In this document: one piece after another, positions 144 to 3,678 of the stretch | Layout: each line of letters starts with the position of its first letter | Position numbering within the stretch: position 1 is the first letter of the stretch | DNA from: Fibrobacteraceae bacterium | GTDB taxonomy: Bacteria > Fibrobacterota > Fibrobacteria > Fibrobacterales > Fibrobacteraceae | Length of the DNA: 64,000 bases | Assembly (NCBI GenBank): GCA_017631885.1 | Contig: JAGBSH010000024.1 | Span: 1-64,000, forward strand | Direction: 5' to 3' | The notes under the pieces: generated by a model | What the model was told of the DNA's origin: nothing | Seen by the model: the letters and a program-made list of their open reading frames with translations, nothing else | The model's database searches: none | Position numbers and translations under genes: made by a program

Positions 144-566
144 ATAATTTTCTTTTATAATGATGAGAATAGATTTGAGCTGAATTTTTGAATTTGTAAA
201 TCGTTGTAGGAAACTTTTCTATTGTGGGGAATGTAAAAAAAGAATAATCTTTTCAAAAAAATCTATATTTTTTTAACATAGCTTTTGTCTGAAAGATTAA
301 AGCAACCTATTTTAGAGTTTTCGACTCTTATTCTCAATCCTGAAACTACCACTTTCAACGTATCCAGAGAATAAGACGAATTCTCACGTCCCATTTGGGA
401 CGTGGGTCGTCTTGTGCTTATTGGATACAAGGGTGTGGTAGCCCTCAGGATTGATAAGCCCTTAAAGCGATACCACGTCCTTTTTTTTATAAAAAATGTG
501 TCAGTATATTCTTTGGGAGCTTCTATGGAATAAGAGTCAAACTTGATTTCAATCAAGGAGACTATC
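144..566. other. Non-coding stretch of 423 bases before the restriction-modification genes
   Basis: No credible gene is seen here. The left part (144-300) is simply AT-rich and includes a TATAAT at 156-161 with no convincing -35 box. The right part (323-538) is dense in nested inverted repeats, described separately. A reading frame on the minus strand spans it, but it runs straight through the palindromes and has no Shine-Dalgarno sequence, so I treat the segment as non-coding. Confidence 0.6.
323..538 (+). ncRNA. Candidate structured RNA or leader with nested hairpins and a T8 tract
   Basis: Four stems nest on one axis: 334-343 with 445-454 (10 bp), 346-352 with 435-441 (7 bp), 360-366 with 422-428 plus 373-379 with 407-413, and an apical 385-392 with 397-404 closing an ATTT loop. 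An outer pair, 323-333 with 528-538, is a perfect 11-bp inverted repeat. Two alternative pairings compete with these: 398-405 with 473-480 (8 bp) and 435-440 with 471-476. Both would place a hairpin 0-4 bases before eight T residues at 481-488, as in an intrinsic terminator. The pairings are read directly from the sequence. That it is transcribed, and that it acts as a switch for the genes at 567-3678, is inference. Confidence 0.45.
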
Positions 567-776: not shown

Positions 777-2642
777 ATGAAAAAAATTGATATTATAAGC
801 AAGATTGGCGACAAATACCACGTTGGTAACACGGAAAATGGCGAGTTTAGTTATGCGAAAGCATTAAAATCTGTCGGAAAGGATATCAAGGATTATCAAA
901 AAGCAACCACTGGTACACGTCACCAATTTCTTGATATAAGATTTGAGAATGAGCGTTTGGTTGTACTTGTCGAATGTAAAAACAAATTCAGCAAATGGGA
1001 TAAAACTAAAATACAAGCACAGTTGCAAGACTATGTTAGATTTGAAAAGAATTACTCCGACAAGAAAATCGTTGCTATTCTGGCTGAAACCGATGGTAAC
1101 GATGTTTGGGTATGGCACGGTCAATCTGTTATCATCGACGATGACCATAAGGCAGAAGACGAAACTGTTCTCCGTGCTTTTGAAGAATACGAAAACCTTT
1201 GCTTTGGTAGAGTAAATGACAAAATCAAGGTTGTGGATTCTATCAAAACGCTTAATGAAAAATTGCACTCGGACGGTGTAGATGAAAAACTGCGTAGCCA
1301 GTTTGTTGGCACTTGCCTACTCGCCCTCAAAAATGGTCTGGTATACAAAGATGTTAAAGAAACCATTGATCCCAAAACTGGAAGAAAAGTATCCCCCGAA
1401 AAAGTGGTGCTTAAAAGTATCAAAGAGATTTTGGAAGGATTGCTTACCCGTGGTGGAGATATAAACAAGGCAAGCAAACTTGCGGTCTTGAACAACAAGG
1501 TTCTTAACGACCAAGACGTAACAAGCCTTACTTACAAGGAGCTTGAAGATATACTCCAGTTTATTGATGATAATGTTGTTCCGTACATCAATGATAAAAG
1601 CACCGCAGGGCAAGATTTGCTTAATCTGTTCTTCACCACATTTAATAAATATGTCGGAAAATCTGATAAGAATCAAGCGTTCACTCCCGACCATATCTGC
1701 GACTTTATGAGCAAAGCAGTTGGCGTAAACAAAAATTCAAGAGTATTAGACCCTTGCTGTGGTAGTGGAGCGTTCCTTGTTCGTGCTATGACGGATGCGA
1801 TGGACGATTGCGACAGCGAAGAAGAACGTGAGGATGTAAAGAAAAATCAAATCTTTGGTATTGAGTATGAAGAAGGTGCGTTCGGTCTGTCATCAACAAA
1901 CATGTTGATACACGGAGATGGAAATTCAAATGTCGTTCAAGATTCAATGTTCAAGCGAGGAAAATGGATTGAAGATAACAACATCAACATAGTGCTGATG
2001 AACCCACCTTATAACGCTACCAAAAAATGCTGTGATCCAGACTATACCAAAAACTGGGATGCCAAGAAGAAAGAAGACCCATCAAAGGGATTGCATTTTG
2101 TTGAATGGGTTGCTCGACATGTTTCAACAAATTGCAAAATAGCGGTATTACTTCCCATGCAAGCTGCTATCGGCAATAGTGGTGATGTAAAAGTATTCAA
2201 AAAGAAGATGTTAGAAAAGTACACGCTTGATGCCGTGTTCTCCTTGCCAAACGAAATGTTCTATCCCGGAGCTTCCGCAGTCGCTTGTTGTATGATTTTC
2301 GATTTGTCACAGAAACACGAAAAGGCAGATAAGGATACATTCTTTGGCTATTTCAAAGATGATAACTTTATAAAGAGAAAAGGTCTTGGTAGAGTGGAGC
2401 AAACGGATGCTAGTGGTAATAGCTTGTGGTTGCAAACCGAAAAAATGTGGCTTGATTTATATAAAAACAAGCGAGAAGTGGCTGGCATTTCAGTTATGCA
2501 TAGAGTAACTTGGGAAGATGAATGGCTTGCAGAAGCATATATGGAAACGGATTACTCCACATTAAGAGAAGATGATTTTCAGCAAACCATAAACGATTTT
2601 TTGGCGTACTTGGTTAAAGAGGGGCAAATATATGAATCTTAA
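777..2642 (+). CDS. Type IIB (BcgI-like) restriction-modification A subunit: nuclease plus N6-adenine methylase
   Basis: One 621-aa chain combines DNA cleavage and methylation. The N-terminal ~120 residues look like a PD-(D/E)XK nuclease of the HsdR-N kind, with D53 and E66-C-K68 as the probable metal site. A helical linker leads to an HsdM-type N6-adenine methylase: the AFTPDHICDFM helix at 301-311, the AdoMet loop DPCCGSGAF at 325-333 and the catalytic NPPY at 409-412. Length and order match the BcgI A subunit (about 637 aa), which works with a separate ~340-aa specificity subunit, exactly the next gene here. The stop overlaps the next start by 11 bases. A type I HsdM is less likely because of the fused nuclease and the absence of a translocase gene. 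Confidence 0.85.
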   Translation: MKKIDIISKIGDKYHVGNTENGEFSYAKALKSVGKDIKDYQKATTGTRHQFLDIRFENERLVVLVECKNKFSKWDKTKIQAQLQDYVRFEKNYSDKKIVAILAETDGNDVWVWHGQSVIIDDDHKAEDETVLRAFEEYENLCFGRVNDKIKVVDSIKTLNEKLHSDGVDEKLRSQFVGTCLLALKNGLVYKDVKETIDPKTGRKVSPEKVVLKSIKEILEGLLTRGGDINKASKLAVLNNKVLNDQDVTSLTYKELEDILQFIDDNVVPYINDKSTAGQDLLNLFFTTFNKYVGKSDKNQAFTPDHICDFMSKAVGVNKNSRVLDPCCGSGAFLVRAMTDAMDDCDSEEEREDVKKNQIFGIEYEEGAFGLSSTNMLIHGDGNSNVVQDSMFKRGKWIEDNNINIVLMNPPYNATKKCCDPDYTKNWDAKKKEDPSKGLHFVEWVARHVSTNCKIAVLLPMQAAIGNSGDVKVFKKKMLEKYTLDAVFSLPNEMFYPGASAVACCMIFDLSQKHEKADKDTFFGYFKDDNFIKRKGLGRVEQTDASGNSLWLQTEKMWLDLYKNKREVAGISVMHRVTWEDEWLAEAYMETDYSTLREDDFQQTINDFLAYLVKEGQIYES

Positions 2643-3678
2643 TATTGAAAATTGGACTTCATTTCGGTTGGGGGATATATTTGATATAAAAAAGGGCAAG
2701 CGTTTAACTTCCGAAGACCAAACCATCGGTAATACGCCATATATAGGTGCTATTGATTCCAACAATGGTATTGCGAACTATATTGGGCAAAGCCCAACAC
2801 ATAATGGCAATACTATAACTTTGAGTTATAACGGCTCTGTAGGAGAAGCGTTTTATCAACCAAATGCATTTTGGGCTACAGACGATGTCAATGTTTTATA
2901 TTTCAAAAAAGAAAATGGCGTGGAATTTAATGAACATATTGCTTTGTTCATTTGTGCGGTGCTAAAAAAAGAGAAATATCGTTATTGTTACGGAAGAAAA
3001 TGGGTTCTCGAGTCAATGAATGAGACAAGAATCAAACTACCTACCAAAAACAATGTGCCGGATTGGGAATGGATGGAAACATATATCAAATCGTTGCACC
3101 ACAAACCCATAACAACAAAAATATCAAATAAAAACAATGTCACCTTGAAATCAAACGAATGGAAAGAATTCTATCTTCACAAACTATTCAATGCAGGAAT
3201 GGGTAATGGCATTGATGCCGTGTTGACAACAAATGACAATCCTAAATATAATTATGTTTCACGCAAAAGTGATAGCGATTTTGATTTTGTTGATGAAATT
3301 GAGGGAGAAACACCATTTCCGGCAGGATCAATGACATTAGCTTTGGGAGGCAGTTTAGGTTCTTGCTTTATACACTCTAAACCATTTTATACGGCACAGA
3401 ATGTGGCTGTCTTACAAGAGAAAACGCCTTTGTCTAATCATACCAAACTGTTCATTGCCACACTTATTAGAAACGAGTGCAAAATCAAATATCAAGCCTT
3501 TGGACGCGAGTTAAATGCTCATTTCAGAAAAGACTTTACAATTAAGCTCCCGATAAAACGTGATGCAAATGGAATTATCTATGATGAAACACACGAGTTT
3601 TCAGATGATGGTTATATTCCTGATTGGGAATGGATGGATAGCTATATGAAATCTTTACCGTATAGCGATAGAATTTAA
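2632..3678 (+). CDS. BcgI-like specificity (B) subunit with two target-recognition halves
   Basis: This 348-aa HsdS-like protein should supply DNA sequence recognition to the preceding methylase-nuclease. It contains two similar halves. Each starts with a short segment of the W..F.L..LF type (W8-F16 and W177-F186) and ends in a near-identical helix start, VPDWEWMETYIKSL at 142-155 and IPDWEWMDSYMKSL at 329-342. Two target-recognition domains imply a bipartite, gapped DNA site, as in type I and type IIB enzymes. The recognition sequence cannot be predicted from the protein. The ATG at 2632 has GAGGGG nearby and lies inside the end of the A-subunit gene, so translation is coupled. The gene appears intact. 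Confidence 0.85.
   Translation: MNLNIENWTSFRLGDIFDIKKGKRLTSEDQTIGNTPYIGAIDSNNGIANYIGQSPTHNGNTITLSYNGSVGEAFYQPNAFWATDDVNVLYFKKENGVEFNEHIALFICAVLKKEKYRYCYGRKWVLESMNETRIKLPTKNNVPDWEWMETYIKSLHHKPITTKISNKNNVTLKSNEWKEFYLHKLFNAGMGNGIDAVLTTNDNPKYNYVSRKSDSDFDFVDEIEGETPFPAGSMTLALGGSLGSCFIHSKPFYTAQNVAVLQEKTPLSNHTKLFIATLIRNECKIKYQAFGRELNAHFRKDFTIKLPIKRDANGIIYDETHEFSDDGYIPDWEWMDSYMKSLPYSDRI

Follow-up and report, generated by a model that had tools for sequence, protein, structure and literature searches.

A conserved leader RNA with a predicted termination switch ahead of DNA methylase operons in Fibrobacteraceae

Transcription attenuators of the trp type place mutually exclusive pairings (1:2, 2:3 and 3:4) and an intrinsic terminator before an operon. 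Riboswitches and T-boxes are conserved 5' leaders whose fold decides termination and which serve many genes per regulon, and type III toxin-antitoxin loci set a promoter, a structured antitoxin RNA of tandem repeats and a terminator before a toxin gene of the ToxN/TenpN type. For restriction-modification genes, the available text of two papers describes C proteins, methyltransferase repressors, promoter methylation, antisense RNAs (EcoRI, Eco29kI) and translational effects (PMC3874152, PMC12707154), and that of a third describes RptR, a protein repressor (PMC12255303). A cis-acting leader switch or attenuator is not described in the available portions of these three papers; the word "riboswitch" does not occur in them, nor does "attenuat" in that of PMC12707154. 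A search for literature on a Fibrobacter attenuator or non-coding RNA with restriction-modification found none and a broader search found nothing equivalent; subscription papers lay mostly outside the coverage, so that absence is no proof. Within that coverage, we found no description of a comparable termination switch for restriction-modification operons.

The Fibrobacter leader that we describe here shares the layout of the attenuators, but it has no leader peptide, carries an extra zipper (P1–P3) around 2:3, and precedes genes for DNA methylases, restriction enzymes and lipoproteins rather than those of one pathway. It would resemble riboswitches and T-boxes in the features named above, yet it matches no Rfam family and has no known ligand and no identified tRNA specifier. 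Unlike type III toxin-antitoxin RNAs it has no tandem repeats, the genes behind it belong to many unrelated families, and no toxin family is among the first-gene families listed. Restriction-modification operons would be among its targets, as they are for the known restriction-modification regulators, which, in the available text of the papers cited, are protein repressors or activators or antisense RNAs and not a cis leader (PMC3874152, PMC12707154, PMC12255303). As in attenuators and riboswitch-like leaders, the element is a 5' leader on the strand of its gene, its exclusive terminator and antiterminator are both under selection, and a T-run follows the stem.

We analyzed a 64,000-nucleotide stretch of a Fibrobacteraceae contig (the window). 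Positions 277–488 of its forward strand hold one copy of the structured leader RNA, upstream of a restriction-modification operon. The initial annotation had proposed mutually exclusive hairpins before a T8 tract here, and all the pairings that it named are present at the bases given: 385–392 (CACGTCCC) and 473–480 (CCACGTCC) are each complementary to 397–405 (GGGACGTGG), and 435–441 (GTGGTAG) pairs with 346–352 (CTACCAC) and with 471–476 (TACCAC). It had overlooked segment 1 (319–335), which pairs with segment 2 through 367–380, and the layout is thus that of a full four-segment switch. Segment 2 (367–392) pairs with segment 1 or with segment 3 (397–422), and segment 3 pairs with segment 2 as an antiterminator or with segment 4 (454–480), the 3' arm of the terminator stem. 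The pairings 1:2, 2:3 and 3:4 are mutually exclusive, as in the trp attenuator. Two mutually complementary stretches, one between segments 1 and 2 and the other between segments 3 and 4, contain the helices P1 (334–343 with 445–454), P2 (346–352 with 435–441) and P3 (360–365 with 423–428). In the antiterminating fold (fold A), 2:3 and P1–P3 form one long hairpin and segment 4 is unpaired. In the terminating fold (fold T), 1:2 forms together with 3:4, the terminator stem, and the T8 tract (481–488) would be the 3' end of the terminated RNA.

A −10-like box, TATATT (264–269), is the putative leader promoter, from which we expect the RNA to start near 275–277. Similar boxes lie upstream of most copies, and the full promoter block (AATCTATATT..TTGACATAG) occurs with 0–3 mismatches in 17 of 113 copies, whereas shuffled sequences never came that close. 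An optional 5' hairpin (281–303), read from the sequences, is found with differing sequence in many copies of a short class that includes the window; it is missing in two copies and in the whole of a long class of ∼230 nt. In the long class the promoter adjoins segment 1 directly and the extra sequence is confined to the 2:3 loop. Past the element, an outer stem (320–333 with 528–541) is loosely kept among copies. Tentatively, 527–538 may be a fifth segment complementary to segment 1, since other copies have a similar match: 58 of 113 copies have at least 9 consecutive pairs to segment 1 within the 75 nt that follow, versus 19 of 113 when shuffled.

The operon behind the window element begins with a small open reading frame (MSHNIKESLIGELDKKIECK...), listed from TTG 543 to 767, although a GGAG at 557–560 favours ATG 567 and thus 567–767. 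This frame has no Pfam or PADLOC match but is conserved in genome G001; it may encode a control protein or one that counters restriction. A type IIG-like restriction-methylase fusion with an N6-methyltransferase domain follows at 777–2642 (PF02384, E=7e-32; PADLOC REase_MTase_IIG, E=1e-51), and then a specificity subunit with two target-recognition domains at 2632–3678 (PF01420, E=1e-34; PADLOC Specificity_II, E=3e-40), all on the forward strand.

DNA searches of the window's own genome and its relatives revealed further copies, several per genome. We aligned 26 of them and built a covariance model, which after a short calibration matched 89 of 111 genomes of the Fibrobacter family (Fibrobacteraceae), or 47 of 56 among good genomes. 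By this model the window's own genome has 7 copies and others up to 21, and the family comprises hundreds of copies in total. Nearly all genomes of genus g2 carry the element, and genus g5 is almost devoid of it. Other families of the phylum gave weak yet structurally complete matches, and at two such loci the pairings are kept while the sequence has changed. The window had no Rfam match at the gathering score, and seven loci, the majority with copies, gave no hit at E≤1 to any family of Rfam 15, T-box included. The element is a previously unlisted, strongly conserved RNA that is absent from Rfam. Two copies (L043:8465-8630 and L046:5685-5851) keep 1:2 and 3:4 with differing segment-1/2 sequences (GATTCTTGT/ACAAGAATC) and a weak 2:3; the 216-aa gene behind them had no PADLOC match, as tested in the L046 copy. 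The exact core motif also occurs on seven contigs, most of them short, from MAGs assigned to Bacilli, Treponema, Lachnospiraceae and Bacteroidales; these contigs are probably misbinned Fibrobacter DNA.

The window RNA is predicted to fold at −97.2 kcal/mol, versus −51.8 ± 4.4 for dinucleotide shuffles (z = −10.3; reached by none of 200). The reverse strand folds nearly as strongly (z = −9.5), so the strand question had to be settled by comparing copies. In every helix G.U cells far outnumber A.C cells, with 252:43 in 1:2, 323:49 in 2:3 and 261:22 in 3:4, which identifies the folded molecule as the sense-strand RNA.

We then asked whether each fold is maintained among copies. An alignment of 115 matches, fitted to fold A only, had 94.5% of fold-A cells paired, with a covariation of 0.684 (0.209 after shuffling, no higher than 0.10 after sliding); 1195 cells were altered on both sides versus 380 shuffled. 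The same alignment, although not fitted to fold T, had 90.0% of fold-T cells paired and 206 cells changed on both sides versus 66 ± 6, and sliding the partners by 1–3 columns brought pairing down to 41–58%. Compensatory branches were counted against 300 simulations that preserved the tree, itself derived from the same alignment, and the substitutions per column. The counts were 13 for 1:2 (null 2.6 ± 1.6; 84% of cells paired in the tree-thinned set), 22 for 2:3 (2.1 ± 1.4), 33 for 3:4 (2.5 ± 1.5) and 339 for P1–P3 (12.6), and no simulation reached the observed value for any of them. Every P1 pair, 7 of 7 P2 pairs and 6 of 6 P3 pairs vary on both sides. In a column-wise covariation test 19 of 40 fold-A pairs passed at E<0.05 and none of the individual pairs in 1:2 or 3:4 did, which is why we relied on helix-level tests. 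Variation is low in segments 1–4, with the invariant bases mostly in the switching segments 2–4, and free in P1–P3; this is expected if every base of the segments must suit two partners while those of P1–P3 have one each.

Compensatory changes in the homologous upstream regions thus preserve both alternative folds, the outcome that the switch of the initial annotation predicts, and on this comparative evidence both mutually exclusive folds are kept by selection. Among its pairings, 385–392 with 397–405, 346–352 with 435–441, and 397–405 with 473–480 and the T-run are conserved across 113 homologues. The pairing of 471–476 with 435–441 is not: it is found in the window and its nearest relative alone, the remaining copies having CTCCACGCC or CACCACGCC at the 471–476 site, and we rejected it as a second conserved switch.

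The comparative data point to a cis-acting leader RNA that probably decides, ahead of the operon, whether the polymerase reads through or stops at an intrinsic terminator. During transcription segment 1 would pair first with segment 2. As segment 3 emerges, 2:3 would displace 1:2 and P1–P3 would zip the flanks into a single long hairpin ahead of segment 4, which would be left without a partner; no terminator would form and the operon would be transcribed. A signal that held 1:2 or blocked P1–P3 would free segment 3 to pair with segment 4 before the T-run and stop transcription at ∼488; a protein, a metabolite, an RNA or the speed of the polymerase are candidates. Equilibrium folding of growing window transcripts gives the same order: 1:2 until ∼410, then 2:3, then P2 and P1, both finished by 458, prior to segment 4. 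Fold A is more stable than fold T by a mean of 7.9 kcal/mol in the short class (18.8 in the window), and termination there would need strong outside help; in the long class neither fold is favoured (mean −0.4 kcal/mol). This modelling suggests that read-through would be the default state in the window and other short copies and that long copies may be more finely balanced. In the window, transcription would run from the 264–269 box and terminate at 488.

Control could instead lie in mRNA stability or translation, with the terminator secondary, if a double-strand RNase of the RNase III type cut the long hairpin or if the hairpin hid the ribosome site. The P1–P5 hairpin of ∼40 pairs would be a plausible RNase III substrate, and in several copies (L037, L040, L057) the start codon seems, by eye, pairable with upstream sequence. 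However, an RNase site would not require 3:4 and a T-run, yet both are kept in all copies: at least 4 T close the element in 113 of 113, always at the same end, and the compensatory branches in 3:4 count against a secondary role for the terminator. We regard this explanation as unlikely.

The element could also be an independent small RNA acting in trans from its own promoter and terminator, as the initial annotation allowed, with the operons behind it using promoters of their own. A promoter-like box, a compact structure, a terminator and many copies per genome would suit such an RNA. But the element hardly varies in its orientation or in its place before a gene: in 101 of 113 copies a gene on the same strand follows within 500 nt, mostly with 50–110 nt from element to start codon. 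Nor would a small RNA with a plain terminator need an antiterminator, yet 2:3 and P1–P3 are the best-kept part. The fixed position disfavours a trans-acting RNA, which we consider quite improbable, and fits the cis-acting termination switch.

The genes behind the element are largely those of DNA modification. Genes were called mechanically, and the annotation of neighbours covers a sample of the copies. A simple pattern test for catalytic motifs identified 40 of 86 non-redundant first genes as DNA methyltransferases, versus 2 of 75 among the nearest upstream genes, and 61 of 101 operons have a DNA methyltransferase as gene 1 or 2. The other first genes include further restriction genes and lipoproteins of Fibrobacter. 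Among the 86 first genes Pfam recognized N6_Mtase (12), DNA_methylase (10), N6_N4_Mtase (8), MethyltransfD12 (5), EcoRI_methylase (4), Tsp45I (2) and the Fib_succ_major lipoproteins (6); methylase families are absent from the 25 Pfam families that are most frequent in the upstream genes. Second genes contribute specificity subunits, ResIII helicases and restriction enzymes. In five genomes (G000, G003, G013, G017, G097), a comparison of positions places the element just upstream of about one in two strong N6 or C5 methylase genes. The proposal of a restriction-modification attenuator therefore holds in that the element adjoins methylase and restriction operons far above chance, but it is too narrow, because lipoprotein and unassigned genes also carry the element. 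Timed expression, which the initial annotation had offered as the purpose, is just one among several possible purposes.

At five loci, long-class copies stand ∼60–70 nt before predicted lipoprotein or secreted genes and not before defence genes. At two others (L113:4784-4986 and L139:4814-5015, both on the reverse strand) a second, diverged element follows the leader in tandem, before a C5 methylase gene, and five further loci have similar spacers; this second element accounts for the 250–350 nt spacing in the C5-methylase class. At one hot spot, different leader-led operons occupy the same site in three loci from different Fibrobacter genomes, flanked upstream by a Schlafen/AlbA_2-like gene and downstream by a conserved gene for a 445-aa ATPase-like protein (MFKRKILKEFENW...).

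A mobile or recombinational DNA element (MITE or attC-like) that carries defence cassettes and uses its palindromes for DNA folding would likewise be multi-copy, palindromic on both strands and placed before exchangeable defence genes at hot spots. Copies within one genome, however, share a median identity of only 57–60% and their differences are compensated, which excludes the plain repeat that the initial annotation had entertained. The strand neutrality of a DNA palindrome, MITE or integron attC site is not seen, as the G.U excess indicates selection on single-stranded sense RNA, and the T-run is always at the same end. Carriage by viruses was rejected as well, no viral contig having an exact match to the core motif. 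We consider a mobile element very improbable. A trp-type attenuator in which ribosomes on a leader peptide set the fold is hardly credible despite its identical 1-2-3-4 topology, because a Shine-Dalgarno-led frame of at least 8 codons occurs in just 6 of 113 leaders and the promoter of the long class, abutting segment 1, leaves no room for one.

Fibrobacter species are gut cellulose degraders. The control of restriction-modification and other defence genes in bacteria is described largely in terms of protein repressors and antisense RNA. In Fibrobacter one RNA element, in up to ∼20 copies per genome, stands ahead of a large share of methylase operons, with comparative support for two competing folds of which one is a terminator. 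We entertain, as a possibility somewhat short of even, that the termination switch represents a phylum-specific class of signal-sensing leader RNAs which joins restriction-modification and methylase operons and some surface lipoprotein genes into one RNA-controlled regulon, with phage attack or DNA-methylation state as examples of the cue. If confirmed, the element would be a new class of regulatory RNA and a new form of control over defence genes, and it would offer a starting point in the search for their controlling signal.
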